A DNA stretch of 64,000 bases from Pengzhenrongella frigida. GTDB taxonomy: Bacteria; Actinomycetota; Actinomycetes; Actinomycetales; Cellulomonadaceae. The DNA is taken from positions 1 to 64,000 of the forward strand of contig NZ_SDWW01000004.1 of NCBI RefSeq assembly GCF_004168625.1, read 5' to 3'. Within the stretch, counting starts at the first letter, position 1, and every line of letters starts with the position of its first letter. The position numbers were made by a program, and so were the translations under genes. The notes under the pieces are model-generated. The model did no database searches and was not told the DNA's origin. It worked only from the letters and a program-made list of their open reading frames with translations. Shown here piece after piece: positions 22,418-27,800 of the stretch.

Positions 22418-23977
22418 GTGCGGCCGACCCGGACGGACCTTCGCCTCGTGCCCGCGGCCGTCGCCACGTGGGTGGTGGCGTTCGTCGTGGTCGGGCTGCC
22501 CGCCGGGGGTGCGCTCGCCGTCGGCCTCCTGGCCGGGGGAGGGGTCGCCGTCGTCGGCGGCTGGCGGTTGGGGCACCGCAGCCGGGTGGGCGTGACGGAT
22601 CGCAGCCGGGTGGGCGTGCGGACGACGGATCGCAGCCGGGTGGGTGCCGGTGTGGCCGGGGTGGTGGGGCAGGGCATTCTCGTGCTCGTCGTGGCCAGCG
22701 CCGTGGCGCTCTCCGCCGCCGGGCAGCTCGCGGTTCGCGGGGCCGGGCTGCTCGGTGCGCTCATCGACGAGGAGGCCACCGTGCGGGTGGTCGGCACCGT
22801 GCGGTCCGAGCCGATACCGCTCGCCGCGCCAGCGGGGTGGGGCGAGCCGGAGGTGCGCTACCGGGTCGTGCTCGGTGTCGATCGGGTCACCGGCCGCGGC
22901 CGGACCGGGTCTGCGGCCGCATCAGTGCTCGTCCTGGGCGGACCGGCGTGGGCCGGGATCGGGTTCGGCGCGCACGTGGAGGTGGACGGTCGGTTGATGC
23001 CCGCCGAGCGTGGCCGGGCCGAGGTCGCGATCCTCTCGGGGCGGGGAGCCCCGCGCGTCGTCGACCCCCCGGGCACGATCGACCGCGCGGTCAGGCAGGT
23101 GCGGACCGCGCTGCTGGTCGCCACCGATCAGCTCGCCCCGGACCCGCGCGGACTCGTGCCGGGGATCGCCGTGGGTGACACCTCGCGGCTGTCGCCGGAC
23201 CTGGCCGAGGCGATGCGGGTCGCGGGTCTCACCCACCTCACCGCCGTCTCGGGTGCCCATTTCGCCATCATCGGCGCGGCGGTGCTCGGGCTCACGGGCG
23301 TGATCGGCCTGCCGCGCCGCGCCCGGATCGCCGTCGTTGTCGCGGCGATGGGCGGGCTGGTGCTGCTCGTACACGCCGAGCCGAGCGTGCTCCGGGCGGC
23401 GGCGATGGGGGCCATCGGTGCCGGCGGCATGCTTCTCGGGCGCCCGTCCCGGGCCCTGGCGGCGCTCGGTGCGACGGTCATCGTGTTGCTGGTGGTCGAT
23501 CCGTGGCTCGCACGCAGCTACGGATTCGCCCTGTCGGTGCTCGCGACGGCGGGGATCGTGCTGCTCACCGGGCCGATCGCGCAGGGCCCGGGTCGGGCAC
23601 TGCCCCGGGGCCTCGCGCGCGCGATCGCCGTCCCGCTCGCAGCGCAGGCGGTGTGCGCGCCGGTGATCGTGCTCCTCAACCCGGCGCTCGCGATGTACGC
23701 GGTCCCGGCGAACCTCGCCGCGGCGCCGGCGATCGCGCCGGCCACGGTCGCCGGAGCCCTCGCCGCGATGGTGGCGCCGTGGTGGGCCACCGGCGGTGCC
23801 GCGCTCGCGCAGGTCGCCGGATGGGCCACCTGGTGGATCGCACAGGTCGCCCGCGGGTGCGCCGCGCTGCCCGGGGCGCAGATGCCGTGGCCGGGCGGGG
23901 CCGGCGGCGCGGGACTGCTCGCGGCGGTTACCGTGGTGGTCGGCGTCGGGGTCGCGCGGGGGAGCAGAGCCCGATGA
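22418..23977 (+). CDS. comEC: ComEC/Rec2-type DNA channel protein, short form
   Basis: 519-aa polytopic membrane protein with an N-terminal DUF4131-like region and the Competence domain (PDLAEAMRVAGLTHLTAVSGAHFAIIGAAVLG near residue 265, then VHAEPSVLRAAAMGAIGAGGMLLGRP). It forms the inner-membrane channel for ssDNA uptake. Full ComEC is usually 700-850 aa with a C-terminal metallo-beta-lactamase nuclease domain. Here the protein ends after the last helix (VVVGVGVARGSRAR), so that domain is absent. GTG 22418 starts 3 bp after comEA. A three-copy DRSRVG repeat lies at about residues 53-76. Confidence 0.87.
   Translation: MRPTRTDLRLVPAAVATWVVAFVVVGLPAGGALAVGLLAGGGVAVVGGWRLGHRSRVGVTDRSRVGVRTTDRSRVGAGVAGVVGQGILVLVVASAVALSAAGQLAVRGAGLLGALIDEEATVRVVGTVRSEPIPLAAPAGWGEPEVRYRVVLGVDRVTGRGRTGSAAASVLVLGGPAWAGIGFGAHVEVDGRLMPAERGRAEVAILSGRGAPRVVDPPGTIDRAVRQVRTALLVATDQLAPDPRGLVPGIAVGDTSRLSPDLAEAMRVAGLTHLTAVSGAHFAIIGAAVLGLTGVIGLPRRARIAVVVAAMGGLVLLVHAEPSVLRAAAMGAIGAGGMLLGRPSRALAALGATVIVLLVVDPWLARSYGFALSVLATAGIVLLTGPIAQGPGRALPRGLARAIAVPLAAQAVCAPVIVLLNPALAMYAVPANLAAAPAIAPATVAGALAAMVAPWWATGGAALAQVAGWATWWIAQVARGCAALPGAQMPWPGGAGGAGLLAAVTVVVGVGVARGSRAR
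22577..22644 (+). repeat. Three-copy in-frame repeat in comEC
   Basis: The 14-mer CGCAGCCGGGTGGG occurs at 22577, 22601 and 22631 (spacings 24 and 30), encoding three RSRVG copies between the first two hydrophobic stretches. All spacings are multiples of three. Confidence 0.8.
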
Positions 23978-23979
23978 AG

Positions 23980-24063
23980 GTGCAGGGCGCGGTGAGGGTG
24001 CAGGGTGCCGTGAGGGTGCATGGCCCGGTGAGGGTGCATGGCCCGGTGAGCGTGCAGCGTGCG
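23980..24063 (+). repeat. 18-bp tandem repeat after comEC
   Basis: Four full units (type GTGCATGGCCCGGTGAGG) at 23980-24051 plus a 12-bp partial unit. They start right after an ATGA overlap with the comEC stop and lie in a frame (VQGAVR / VHGPVR hexapeptides) that stays open for long but then looks like out-of-frame noise over holA. I call it a repeat, not a gene. Confidence 0.85.
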
Positions 24064-24145: not shown

Positions 24146-25201
24146 GTGCCACCCGCCGAGCGTCGCCCCTCATCCGCGCGTCCCGCATCCCGGCCCGCGC
24201 CCGCGCGCTCCTCGACGGCGGGTCGAGCCACCACCATGGCGTGGGACGCGGTCGAGCTTGCCCCGATCGTGCTCGTGACGGGCGCCGAGCAGCTGCTCGC
24301 CGAGCGTGCCGTCGCCGGCCTGATCGCCGCGGCCAAGCAGCGGGATGCCGATGTCGAGGTGACCCGGCTCGAGGGTGCCGGCTATGTCGGCGGGACCCTG
24401 CTCGTCGCGACGAGCCCGTCCCTGTTCGGCGAGGCGCGGATCGTCGTCGTGCAGGGGGTCGAGCAGGCGAACGACGAGCTGATCAGTGACGCGCTCGCCT
24501 ACCTGGACGCCCCGGCCGACGACGTCGTGCTGGTGCTGCACCACGGCGGCGGTCAACGCGGCAAGAAGTTCCTCGACGCCGTGCGCGGCGCGGGTGCGAC
24601 CGTCGTGACCTGCGAACCGATCAAGAAGGACACCGACAAGGTCGCGTTCGCGGCCGCGGAGCTGCGGCGAGCGGGTCGGCGTGCGGACGCCGCGGCGATG
24701 CGCGCGCTGGTCGAGGCGGTCGGCGCGGACCTGCGCGAGCTCGCGGCGTCCTGCGCGCAGCTCGTGGCCGACACCTCGGGCGTGATCGGTGCGGACGTCG
24801 TGAACCGCTACTACGGGGGGCGGATCGAGGCCACCGGCTTCCGGGTCGCGGACGCCGCGATCGCGGGGCAGACCGGTCAGGCTGTCGCGCTCTTGCGGCA
24901 CGCGCTCGCGACGGGGGCGGATCCGGTGCCGCTGGTCGCCGCGCTGGCCGCGAAGCTGCGGGTTCTCGCCAAGGTGGCCGCAACCCGCGGGCGGGGCGGT
25001 GCCGCGGCCCGGGACCTCGGGCTGGCTCCGTGGCTGGTCGAGCGCGCGCTGCGCGACCTCTCCCGGTGGACGCCGGAGGCTCTCGCGGCGGCGATCACGG
25101 CTGTTGCGCAGGCGGACGCGGAGGTCAAGGGCGGGGGGCGCGATCCGGTCTTCGCGGTCGAGCGTGCGGTGATCCGGGTCGCGTCAGCCGCAGCGTCGTG
25201 A
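24146..25201 (+). CDS. holA: DNA polymerase III delta subunit
   Basis: 351-aa HolA-type AAA+ wrench of the clamp loader, which opens the beta clamp. Recognised from APIVLVTGAEQLLAERAV at the N-terminus, the SPSLFGEARIVVVQGVEQAN stretch and the C-terminal helical RDLGLAPWLVERALRDLSRWTPEAL. GTG 24146 is chosen because CAGGCT ends 6 nt before it, as in other leaderless starts of this window; ATG 24236 (321 aa) is the alternative and begins nearer the conserved fold. In actinobacteria holA commonly sits before rpsT and after comEC, as here. It overlaps the EAL gene tail to tail by 18 bp. Confidence 0.92.
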   Translation: MPPAERRPSSARPASRPAPARSSTAGRATTMAWDAVELAPIVLVTGAEQLLAERAVAGLIAAAKQRDADVEVTRLEGAGYVGGTLLVATSPSLFGEARIVVVQGVEQANDELISDALAYLDAPADDVVLVLHHGGGQRGKKFLDAVRGAGATVVTCEPIKKDTDKVAFAAAELRRAGRRADAAAMRALVEAVGADLRELAASCAQLVADTSGVIGADVVNRYYGGRIEATGFRVADAAIAGQTGQAVALLRHALATGADPVPLVAALAAKLRVLAKVAATRGRGGAAARDLGLAPWLVERALRDLSRWTPEALAAAITAVAQADAEVKGGGRDPVFAVERAVIRVASAAAS

Positions 25202-25924
25202 CGGCACCACGGCGGTCCGATCGAGCACCGTGGTGACCTCGAGCGCGAAGCCCTGGTAGAGGTCGAAGCCCAGGCTCTGGCACTCATCGAGCATCGACTC
25301 GGACTCGACGCACTCGGCGACGACCTGTGCCCCGTGCGAGCGCGCGAGGTCGATGAGGGGCTGGCCCTCGACGTCGAGATCACGAACGTCGATCTTGACG
25401 TAGTCGGCGTAGGGCAGCAGTCGGCGCTGGCTGGCGAGCCCGATGAAGTCGTCGATCGCGATCCGGAAGCCGCGGTCGCGCAACCGCCGGACGCCGGCCA
25501 TCACGGCGTCGTCGGCGACCACCGACTCGACGATCTCGACCACGAGCTGCTCCGGCAGGTACGGAATGGACAGGTCGTTCACAAGGTACGAGCGCGTGAA
25601 GTTGACGAAGATGCGCCGATCACCCGCGACCGAGGACACCCCGGGGCCGGCGAACGTGGTGTGCAGCACGTGCGCGGTCGCGGCGTTCTGCTGCTCGGCG
25701 GTCCAGTGGTCGACATGCAGCGGGGCCGGGTGGGGGGAGCGGAAGTACAGCTCGTACCCGAGGACGTCGCCGCTCCCGGTGAAGATCCCCTGTCGCCCGA
25801 GCAGCATTCGATCGGTGCGCAAGAACCTGTTGCAGTCGCGCTGCGAGGGCGGCGCTGGCAGGTCATCGGGGGCATCGGCGAGGCGTCCCAGAAGGGCTGG
25901 CGGGGCGTAGACATCTGTTGTCAT
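25184..25924 (-). CDS. Stand-alone EAL-domain protein (c-di-GMP phosphodiesterase-like)
   Basis: 246 aa, almost only an EAL domain (about 40-240). Substrate and metal residues appear as YELYFR (EAL position), NFTRS, VEIVES, IDDF, VKID, AECVE and LYQGF, so most of the catalytic set is kept, though the EAL signature itself is diverged. The pattern resembles EAL-HDOD proteins such as YuxH, but the HDOD half is missing. It would lower c-di-GMP or act as a c-di-GMP sensor. It is transcribed towards holA and divergent from the peptide-regulator pair. GTCAC-type boxes lie just upstream of ATG 25924. Confidence 0.8.
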   Translation of the reverse strand: MTTDVYAPPALLGRLADAPDDLPAPPSQRDCNRFLRTDRMLLGRQGIFTGSGDVLGYELYFRSPHPAPLHVDHWTAEQQNAATAHVLHTTFAGPGVSSVAGDRRIFVNFTRSYLVNDLSIPYLPEQLVVEIVESVVADDAVMAGVRRLRDRGFRIAIDDFIGLASQRRLLPYADYVKIDVRDLDVEGQPLIDLARSHGAQVVAECVESESMLDECQSLGFDLYQGFALEVTTVLDRTAVVPSRRCG

Positions 25925-25930
25925 GTCTCA

Positions 25931-25958
25931 TGTGACACCCAGACAGCATTGCTGTGAC
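25931..25958 (-). promoter_or_regulatory. Putative operator upstream of the EAL gene
   Basis: On the minus strand GTCACAG starts at 25958 and a second GTCAC ends 7 nt before the EAL start. Between them is the palindrome ACAGCA-T-TGCTGT (25943-25955). The pentamers match those before the peptide and regulator genes. Confidence 0.45.
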
Positions 25959-26082
25959 GGGTTATTGGCGAGCAAGAGGTCGATTGACGCCAAATTCACC
26001 CATATGGCGGTAACTCGTGACGCGGAGGCGTCCGATCCACGCACGGCGGACCGTTCTTGTGCCCTGACCTGCAAGTTCATCC

Positions 26083-26131
26083 TTGACAGGAGGTTCTGCA
26101 CAGGCGATCTTGGTGTCACCGTGACTGTGAC
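26083..26131 (+). promoter_or_regulatory. Promoter and GTCAC-box operator of the peptide gene
   Basis: TTGACA (26083-26088), 17-bp spacer, GATCTT (26106-26111). Just downstream, over the expected start of transcription, lies 26115-26131. On the minus strand it reads GTCAC-A-GTCAC-G-GTGAC, three pentamers with a 6-bp period, the same layout as the box before the XRE-TPR gene. A protein bound here should repress. Confidence 0.55.
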
Positions 26132-26163
26132 AAGCAGTCAAAATACCCTGACTGGAGATTCTC

Positions 26164-26301
26164 ATGAAGCGCACGATCAAGTCGGTCTTTGTTGTCGCCC
26201 TCGCTGCCGGCCTCGCCCTGGTCTCGGTCGCACCCGCCTCTGCTTTCGGCGGCGTCACCACCAACGGTGCCGGTTGCTGCCGCTACTCGGGCACCAACTA
26301 G
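26164..26301 (+). CDS. Small secreted peptide, putative signalling pro-peptide
   Basis: 45-aa ORF too short for most gene finders. A classical Sec signal peptide (basic MKRTIKS, hydrophobic VFVVALAAGLALVSV, cleavage motif APASA) would release the 18-mer FGGVTTNGAGCCRYSGTN. A GGAG ribosome site lies 7 nt before the ATG, and a TTGACA promoter stands upstream. The mature part has vicinal cysteines and many small polar residues. The next gene on the same strand is an XRE-TPR regulator, the partner type for exported peptides in RRNPP systems, so a pheromone role is the best hypothesis. A small bacteriocin or a redox-active peptide is an alternative. I know no named family for it. Confidence 0.75.
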   Translation: MKRTIKSVFVVALAAGLALVSVAPASAFGGVTTNGAGCCRYSGTN

Positions 26302-26346
26302 CAGTCGCTGGCGGCGCTGAAGCAGCAGTGGCGCATGTCTCAACTG

Positions 26347-26387
26347 ACGTCCGGGTCGCGCTGTGACGGTGGTGCCGACCCGGACGT
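26347..26387 (+). terminator. Hairpin between peptide gene and regulator
   Basis: Perfect 12-bp stem ACGTCCGGGTCG (26347-26358) with its complement at 26376-26387 around a 17-nt loop that contains TGTGAC. It lies 45 bp after the peptide stop, with no T-tract. It could end the short peptide mRNA or attenuate read-through into the regulator. Confidence 0.5.
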
Positions 26388-26446
26388 GAGGTGCTCGGTG
26401 AATCGATGGGAAAGTCCGCGCGTCGTTTGGGACACGCTGACCCAAG

Positions 26447-26463
26447 GTCACAGTTACAGTCAC
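26447..26463 (+). promoter_or_regulatory. GTCAC-box operator of the XRE-TPR gene
   Basis: GTCAC-A-GTTAC-A-GTCAC, three pentamers with 6-bp period. It covers the likely -10 (TACAGT, 26455-26460), which ends 8 nt before the ATG at 26469. This placement predicts autorepression and leaderless translation. Confidence 0.55.
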
Positions 26464-26468
26464 TTTTT

Positions 26469-27800
26469 ATGACAGACATCGGTGACCGCATTCGGGTGCT
26501 GCGCGTGGCGGCATCGCTGTCCCAGACCGCCCTCGCGGGTGAGTCATTCTCGCCCAGCTACATCTCTCTGATCGAGGGTGGCCGGCGCGAACCGACCGAT
26601 TCGGCGCTCGCCGTGCTCGCGGCACGTCTCGACACGACGGCGGAGTACCTCCGGCACGGCGAGAGCGGGCCCAACGAGGCGAGAGCTCGTCTCGAGATCG
26701 ACTACGCCAAGCTCGCTTCCGAGAACGGTCACCCCGAGGAATCGCGTGATCGGATGCTCGCGCTCGACCTGACGGGGATCGCCCCGGCGCTTCATCCGGA
26801 GATCCTCAAGACTCTCGCGCGAGCGCACGAGGGACTCGGAGACCTCGAAGCGTCGATCGCCGTGCTGGAGCCGTTGCTCGAACGGGTGCGTGCGCACGAG
26901 AACCACCTGGATGCCGCCGAGATCACCACGAGTCTCGTGATCTCCTATCTCCAGTCCGGGGACCTCCACCGCAGCGTCGAGCTAGGTGAGGAGGTGCTCG
27001 CCGACCTGGAGTCGGCTGGGCTCACCGGGACCGACGAGCACCTGCGTCTCGGCGCGTCGATTCTCTGGGCCTACGTCGAGCGGGGCGACCTGATGTACGC
27101 CACCCACCGCGCGTCGGAGCTGATCGCCCAGGCGGACGCGCTCGGGACGCCCCGCGGGCGTGGCGGTGTCTACTGGAACGCCTCGCTCGTCGCTGAAGGG
27201 CGCCACGACTACGCCCTCGCCCAGCGGTACACCACTCGCGCGCTCGCTCTGGTGGGTGAGACCGGCTCGACCCGGGACGTGGCTCGGCTCCGGCACCACT
27301 ACGCATGGCTTCTCCTGCGCGGCGAACCCGCGGCACCCGAAGCCGCGCTGGTGCAGTTCCAGCTCTCTGTGCCGGTGCTTGCAGTTGTCGGCTCGTCCGA
27401 CGACATCGCGTTCGCCGAGATCGAGCGTTCGCGTGCGTACCTGATGCTCGGCGATGTCGCCAAAGCTGAGGATGACGCCCGAAGTGCGATCGAGCGCCTG
27501 GGATCGAAGCCCCGTCTGGACACCTGGCGCGCTCACCTCGTTCTCGGCGATGCGCTGCTCGCTCGCGGCGACGACATCGGCGCGGCGGACGCGTACCTCC
27601 GGGCGGCCGACATGCTCGGGATGATGGCGGCCAGCCGGCAGTCGGCGGCCGCCTGGCGCGAGCTCGGTGATCGGTACCTCGCTCAGGGTGACGTCTCGGG
27701 CGCGGCCCGGTCGTTCGACCGCGCACTGCGTGAGGCGGGGCTCCGTCCGACCGTCCCGGCGGCCATGCTCGCGGCTCGGTACAAGGTCACCGTCGACTGA
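26469..27800 (+). CDS. XRE-family HTH regulator with TPR sensor domain (RRNPP-like)
   Basis: 443 aa. The N-terminal XRE helix-turn-helix (about 3-60: IGDRIRVLRVAASLSQTALAG, PSYISLIEGGRREPT) is followed by helical TPR-like repeats to the end (ILKTLARAHEGLGDLEASIAVLEPL, AEITTSLVISYLQSGDLHRSVELGEEVL and others). This is the build of PlcR/Rgg/NprR-type cytoplasmic receptors for re-imported peptides. ATG 26469 fits the HTH; the longer frame from 26391 crosses the operator. It lies 167 bp after the secreted-peptide gene on the same strand and shares its GTCAC box, so it probably regulates itself, the peptide and the EAL gene. Peptide binding is inference. A strong terminator follows. Confidence 0.85.
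   Translation: MTDIGDRIRVLRVAASLSQTALAGESFSPSYISLIEGGRREPTDSALAVLAARLDTTAEYLRHGESGPNEARARLEIDYAKLASENGHPEESRDRMLALDLTGIAPALHPEILKTLARAHEGLGDLEASIAVLEPLLERVRAHENHLDAAEITTSLVISYLQSGDLHRSVELGEEVLADLESAGLTGTDEHLRLGASILWAYVERGDLMYATHRASELIAQADALGTPRGRGGVYWNASLVAEGRHDYALAQRYTTRALALVGETGSTRDVARLRHHYAWLLLRGEPAAPEAALVQFQLSVPVLAVVGSSDDIAFAEIERSRAYLMLGDVAKAEDDARSAIERLGSKPRLDTWRAHLVLGDALLARGDDIGAADAYLRAADMLGMMAASRQSAAAWRELGDRYLAQGDVSGAARSFDRALREAGLRPTVPAAMLAARYKVTVD

Follow-up and report, generated by a model that had tools for sequence, protein, structure and literature searches.

Described RRNPP systems and the locus in Pengzhenrongella frigida

The closest described counterparts of the system treated here are PlcR-PapR and NprR-NprX of Bacillus, whose local promoters are autoregulated. 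In both, a small propeptide exported by the Sec pathway is encoded beside a cytosolic regulator of 250-500 aa that combines a helix-turn-helix (HTH) domain with tetratricopeptide repeats (TPR). A comparable arrangement is found in a 64,000-nucleotide stretch of contig NZ_SDWW01000004.1 from Pengzhenrongella frigida (the window, by which this whole stretch is meant), held by a 4.3 Mb genome of the Cellulomonadaceae type. Between holA and rpsT it carries a 45-codon gene for a putative secreted peptide and a gene for an XRE-TPR protein, both on the plus strand, and a gene for a stand-alone EAL protein on the minus strand (Table 1). The peptide and regulator genes, and palindromic sites that would serve as DNA switches, are kept together in relatives, and the locus therefore probably represents an undescribed chemical signalling system.

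In a survey of RRNPP systems, these are recognized by five criteria, namely a propeptide of 10-100 aa, Sec export, a receptor of 250-500 aa, TPR repeats, and direct adjacency of the two genes (PMC10075063). The propeptide here has 45 aa, the candidate receptor has 443 aa and contains TPR repeats, and the regulator ATG lies 167 bp from the peptide stop codon on the same strand; features of Sec export, comprising a charged start, a hydrophobic stretch and an AxA-like site, were read by eye. The system differs from the Bacillus pairs in belonging to Actinomycetota rather than Firmicutes, in a peptide gene placed upstream of the receptor gene, in a GCC[R/K] peptide core, and in weak sequence similarity (PlcR, 2qfc, E 0.0023). 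It shares the TPR superhelix with Rap-Phr systems; Rap proteins lack a DNA-binding XRE domain, whereas the window regulator has one. The comparison is an analogy in which the window system would work like an RRNPP pair, relation by descent being left aside.

The survey covered only complete genomes of Firmicutes (and viruses) and describes actinobacterial signals as typically small molecules (PMC10075063); in the consulted passages of a review of quorum sensing in Actinobacteria, the words RRNPP, PlcR and Rgg do not occur (PMC4748050). Searches of open-licence papers turned up no actinobacterial RRNPP system. If the reading developed below is correct, peptide pheromones read by TPR proteins, described for Firmicutes, extend to another phylum (Cellulomonas, Actinotalea), in hosts that are cellulose degraders of practical use and through a three-promoter circuit that is simple and testable.

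Conservation of the peptide and regulator genes

The regulator is present in 99 of 221 genomes of the family, distributed over four of 25 genera, and in 97 of these 99 a small open reading frame (ORF) lies directly 5' of it on the same strand. This count combines 95 genomes identified by a peptide profile, not all of whose matches were checked letter by letter, with two (G014 and G011) recognized by eye, and it bears out the linkage between regulator and small ORF on which the earlier sequence-only reading had staked its case. The profile was built from 62 distinct peptides and matched those 95 genomes at E 2.9e-5 or better, always 76-370 bp upstream and on the same strand. In the 122 family genomes that lack the regulator, the best profile E among the matches listed was 1.3e-4, and the matches noted among these were partial and situated inside longer open frames. 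A signal-peptide rule, based on crude hydropathy and free of any Cys-Cys requirement, detected an ORF ending in Cys-Cys 5' of the regulator gene in all but two of 54 loci (52 of 54), and a rule requiring Cys-Cys found a peptide ORF in the remaining two as well. The two genes are thus neighbours that are conserved together.

A scan of named genomes yielded 49 loci, mostly from Cellulomonas and Actinotalea. Among the named relatives observed, Cellulomonas fimi strain SB comes nearest, with a regulator 76% identical to that of the window; the regulator of one locus (L082) is only 38% identical. Two loci (L083 and L089) carry a second, diverged XRE-TPR gene between the EAL and peptide genes, giving the order EAL, XRE, peptide, XRE.

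Sequence and selection of the peptide

The 62 aligned peptides are similar in size, with an alignment of 53 columns, and all have a signal-peptide-like N-terminus and a Cys-Cys pair near the C-terminus. GCC occurs in 60 of them, CC[R/K] in 59 and the full GGA[T/S]GCC[R/K] in 30, and the positions after CC and before the core differ between species. The presence of Cys-Cys in all 62 is partly a matter of selection, because the set was collected with the rule that demanded it. Between 26 disjoint nearest pairs, the ratio of nonsynonymous to synonymous differences (pN/pS) is 0.35 over the whole ORF and 0.05 in the eight columns around Cys-Cys that form the GCC core. The peptide frame is under purifying selection, and the conserved frame and synonymous bias that the sequence-only reading had called for are both present.

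These data also bear on the proposal that the small ORF is untranslated and that regulatory DNA or a small RNA accounts for the conservation. Conserved palindromes and hairpins in the region would suit such a role, but substitutions fall at codon positions 1, 2 and 3 in the proportions 47/26/150, pN/pS exceeds 1.7 in both other frames (1.8 at +1 and 2.8 at +2, in 18 equal-length pairs) against its in-frame value of 0.35, and a Shine-Dalgarno-like GGAG precedes the peptide ATG, so that a non-coding origin of the conservation is scarcely credible.

The cysteine pair itself invites a further explanation, in which the peptide is an extracellular thiol or metal sensor or ligand, acting as a vicinal dithiol or in metal capture, and in which the circuit responds to redox or metal conditions rather than to cell density. 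Adjacent cysteines are unusual for a linear pheromone, and here the pair is invariant across the 62 aligned peptides, 59 of which continue with Arg or Lys. Metal or redox genes were, however, not observed in the conserved neighbourhood, and the receptor is built like those that bind peptides, which makes this explanation improbable beside that of a peptide signal. The near-frozen Cys-Cys core does raise the question of redox-gated signalling, which is taken up below.

A palindrome common to three genes

A single palindrome, GTCA-N9-TGAC, recurs at the promoter or start of each of the three genes, those for the peptide, the regulator and the EAL protein. It stands 19-22 bp 5' of the regulator start in all 62 loci (55 perfect, seven with one mismatch), is perfect 5' of the peptide gene in 44 of the 62, and lies over the EAL start codon in 52 of the 55 loci that bear an EAL gene. 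Shuffled sequence, in which base composition alone was preserved, gives perfect palindromes at the regulator site in 0.04 and at the peptide site in 0.08 of 62 loci. The regulator site contains a TANNNT -10-like box (TACAGT in the window) 8 nt before the ATG. A -10 box so close to the ATG is typical of leaderless genes in Actinomycetes, and the regulator mRNA is accordingly predicted to start without a leader. Since this box falls within the palindrome, a repressor bound there would block the promoter.

A stricter pattern derived from the regulator-type site matched 68 of 220 family genomes, with one copy in each, and every one of these copies sits 4-8 nt 5' of the regulator gene; used to look for a wider regulon, the pattern disclosed no further sites in these 68 genomes. 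The window genome has no match to it because its regulator site carries one mismatch, and a looser pattern has six matches there, one of them at the EAL start.

Paralogous XRE-TPR genes elsewhere in Cellulomonas (L084, L091, L093 and L095) have a perfect GTCA-N9-TGAC 72-73 bp before their estimated starts, and related regulators may therefore read the same word; no peptide was found at these four loci. Among 62 loci of distant XRE-TPR relatives that were scanned, a match at seven of the eight palindrome positions within 60 bp of the start occurred in one only (L162), which holds an ortholog. Loci L153-L155, from another family, have two GTCA-N9-TGAC sites, at -154 and -131. Four loci of Actinotalea and C. 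bogoriensis (L074, L075, L078 and L079) have one more perfect palindrome, 424-516 bp 5' of the regulator gene, and no EAL gene was found there.

Domains and fold of the regulator

The regulator matches the Pfam families HTH_31 (E 7.2e-9), TPR_2 (E 7.4e-13) and TPR_12 (E 2.3e-9), and its AlphaFold2 model comprises an XRE domain and a TPR superhelix, with a mean predicted local distance difference test score of 91.6 and a predicted template modelling score of 0.80. A Foldseek search with this model found PlcR with bound PapR at E 6.9e-6, ranked under many generic TPR proteins. With VIA-align, the best RRNPP match is Rap (4gyo; Z 22.1, root-mean-square deviation (rmsd) 6.2, 338 aligned), and NprR (5dbk) follows with Z 21.6 (rmsd 6.7, 341 aligned). 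The modelled fold fits a peptide receptor and is not specific to RRNPP proteins. The RRNPP-like build that had been proposed for the regulator accords with the Pfam matches, with the fold and with four of the published criteria, the fifth, Sec export, having been judged by eye.

A candidate peptide-sensing circuit

We consider it rather likely that the locus encodes a local, autoregulated, RRNPP-type peptide-sensing circuit in Actinomycetota with the EAL gene as a target. The propeptide would leave the cell by the Sec pathway and be cut down to a short C-terminal fragment with a Cys-Cys core, which an oligopeptide permease would re-import; the window genome encodes five SBP_bac_5 peptide-binding proteins. 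Once inside, the peptide is predicted to bind the XRE protein in its TPR superhelix and to alter the grip of this protein on the palindromes. The regulator would most likely repress the peptide, regulator and EAL genes, since one site overlaps the regulator -10 box, another the start region of the peptide promoter and the third the EAL start codon, and the peptide would relieve this repression. Derepression would then yield positive feedback and more EAL protein as cell density rises. The output would be the EAL protein, joined in many relatives by a tandem copy with intact catalytic residues, acting in the window species through hydrolysis of cyclic diguanylate (c-di-GMP).

Several observations weigh against this reading. 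Two genomes (G034 and G048) keep a diverged regulator (44-48% identity) and the EAL gene and have neither the peptide nor the palindrome, and distant XRE-TPR relatives in Actinomycetes mostly occur without such a peptide. Binding of the palindrome by the XRE-TPR protein is deduced from the position of the sites. In structure comparison many unrelated peptide-binding TPR proteins fit the model better than RRNPP receptors do, LGN (Z 24.6, rmsd 4.7, 321 aligned) outscoring Rap and NprR, and sequence profiles reached PlcR only at the weak E-value given above (the ComR HTH at E 9e-5). In a partial Mantel test over 48 loci, corrected for holA, TPR distance correlates with the distance of the mature peptide (r 0.265) and equally with that of the signal peptide (r 0.29), so that coevolution specific to ligand and receptor is not indicated. 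As for the EAL gene, a seven-of-eight palindrome match near its start is kept in four of 12 genomes that lack the regulator, and these 12 circuit-less genomes may reflect one shared loss event.

Some of these points would suit a peptide that is an exported effector, such as a small bacteriocin or an envelope or surface-active peptide, controlled by an XRE-TPR protein that senses some other ligand. Regulator relatives without a peptide are common in Actinomycetes, TPR coevolution is not specific to the mature part, and the peptide gene has its own promoter region and is followed by a strong hairpin, as would be expected for an abundant product: the hairpin has z < -2 in 39 of 62 loci (z = -1.9 in the window) and points to a distinct mRNA for the peptide, abundant or stable. 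An effector role is nevertheless unlikely, given that the GCC core is nearly frozen, that no gene for export, maturation or immunity was observed in the conserved holA–rpsT set (peptide, regulator, EAL), and that pairing with the regulator clade is near strict, a peptide without the regulator being absent among the matches listed.

The peptide-sensing circuit can also be framed more specifically, in a form that we advance tentatively and with less than even confidence. The peptide would be an RRNPP-like pheromone of Actinomycetota with a vicinal Cys-Cys pair, oxidised outside the cell and reduced inside, whose thiols gate recognition, and the output gene would have originated as that of a c-di-GMP phosphodiesterase and been duplicated, one copy turning in most Cellulomonas into a catalytically inactive effector under control of the signal and the other staying intact.

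The EAL gene as a probable target

Seven of the 62 regulator loci, Actinotalea among them, show no EAL gene in the flanking DNA examined, and in four module-less genomes outside Cellulomonas holA and rpsT are neighbours; for these reasons the core is taken to be the peptide and the regulator, with EAL a frequent target rather than, as had been supposed, a member of the core module. Its tie to the circuit is upheld by the common operator, missing where peptide and regulator are missing. Thirteen genomes of one genus (g4, Cellulomonas) lack the regulator, and in 12 of them the interval from holA to rpsT holds two EAL genes; the remaining one, a 67% complete genome, gave no EAL match. None of these 12 has a perfect palindrome close to where the rpsT-side EAL copy starts, as against 52 of 55 loci with the regulator, and this contrast ties the EAL gene and its palindrome to the regulator. 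In Cellulomonas without peptide and regulator (L258-L262 and L265-L271), two EAL genes persist and the rpsT-side copy is degenerate.

The holA–rpsT gap measures 103-208 bp in four of 11 module-less genomes outside Cellulomonas, these four being the ones whose 1.5-kb flank reached rpsT. The sequence-only reading had described holA and rpsT as usual neighbours and the three genes as an inserted module. The first holds in these other genera and fails in the 12 regulator-less Cellulomonas with two EAL genes in between; insertion is only partly sustained, the EAL pair persisting in Cellulomonas that lack peptide and regulator.

Like known EAL c-di-GMP phosphodiesterases, the window protein belongs to PF00563 (Table 1) and keeps E58, N108, E130, D158, D159, K177, E204 and Q224, residues that we take to be catalytic; it differs from them in being short and stand-alone, and in the degeneration of the operator-bearing copy in relatives. 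Among 54 relatives, this copy carries Arg in place of Asn108 in 53, lacks D158 in 53 and D159 in 52, and shows Gln in place of E58 in 35, whereas the tandem second copy keeps E58, N108, E130, D158, D159 and K177 in all 16 cases. In the EAL tree the window copy is paired with its C. fimi SB counterpart (support 0.56), in the part of the tree that holds the second copies (0.92). The suggested c-di-GMP output is thus favoured by the residues kept in the window copy, but the loss of these residues from the operator-bearing copy in nearly all 54 relatives renders it uncertain. Judged by its residues, c-di-GMP hydrolysis in the window species is a fair guess, and the directly controlled copy looks catalytically dead in most relatives, where an intact copy may lie in the same operon downstream of the degenerate one. 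The degenerate copy may be an enzyme that has become an effector under pheromone control.

Relatives beyond the clade

At E 1e-60, 59 of 394 genomes of the class contain distant XRE-TPR relatives. Of the 29 such loci that were scanned, L221 alone carries a signal-peptide ORF with a terminal GCC, at -235 to -70, and another locus from a different family (L145) has a signal-peptide ORF ending near Cys-Cys at about -256 to -64 before the regulator; each of the two stands for a single genome and serves as a lead only. In family f32 the regulator is present in five of 12 genomes and such an ORF in one only. Weak peptide-profile matches in genus g19 (G186, G190 and G193; E ~0.0016) were accompanied by no GCC-ending ORF detectable by pattern in the stretches examined. 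Internal stop codons in the paralogous regulators were considered and rejected, the local alignments being stop-free in the three loci checked. Distant XRE-TPR relatives are also found on mobile DNA, in 30 plasmid records (28 from Streptomyces) and one phage record, the best 11 places listed being 34-38% identical.

Layout of the locus

The 45-codon gene, its distance from the XRE-TPR gene and the divergent EAL gene, as first described, agree with the ORF positions and the Pfam matches (Table 1), and the 18-residue length given for the exported part is correct provided that cleavage falls after ASA.

Table 1. Positions of the genes and DNA elements of the locus, numbered from the first nucleotide of the window.
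Feature	Position	Strand	Description
Peptide propeptide ORF	26164..26301	+	45 aa; signal-peptide-like N-terminus, AxA-like cleavage site, exported part of ~18 aa ending NGAGCCRYSGTN
XRE-HTH + TPR regulator	26469..27800	+	443 aa from ATG at 26469; candidate intracellular peptide receptor
Stand-alone EAL protein	25184..25924	-	Divergent; PF00563 E 2.4e-18; catalytic residues present in window genome
Palindrome GTCATGTCTCATGTGAC	25920..25936	.	Perfect GTCA-N9-TGAC; spans EAL start codon
Palindrome GTCACCGTGACTGTGAC	26115..26131	.	Perfect GTCA-N9-TGAC; 49 bp 5' of peptide ATG
Palindrome GTCACAGTTACAGTCAC	26447..26463	.	7/8 positions of GTCA-N9-TGAC; 22 bp 5' of regulator ATG; contains -10-like TACAGT
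Strong hairpin	26341..26393	+	Between peptide and regulator genes; arms of 18 nt, 89% complementary; candidate terminator or mRNA-stabilising stem

The holA gene extends to 25201, overlapping the EAL stop codon, and rpsT lies on the minus strand from ~27967, beyond the regulator gene. Directly 5' of the holA reading frame, positions 23940-24060 of the window hold copies of a short GC-rich repeat resembling ATGGCCCGGTGAGGGTGC.

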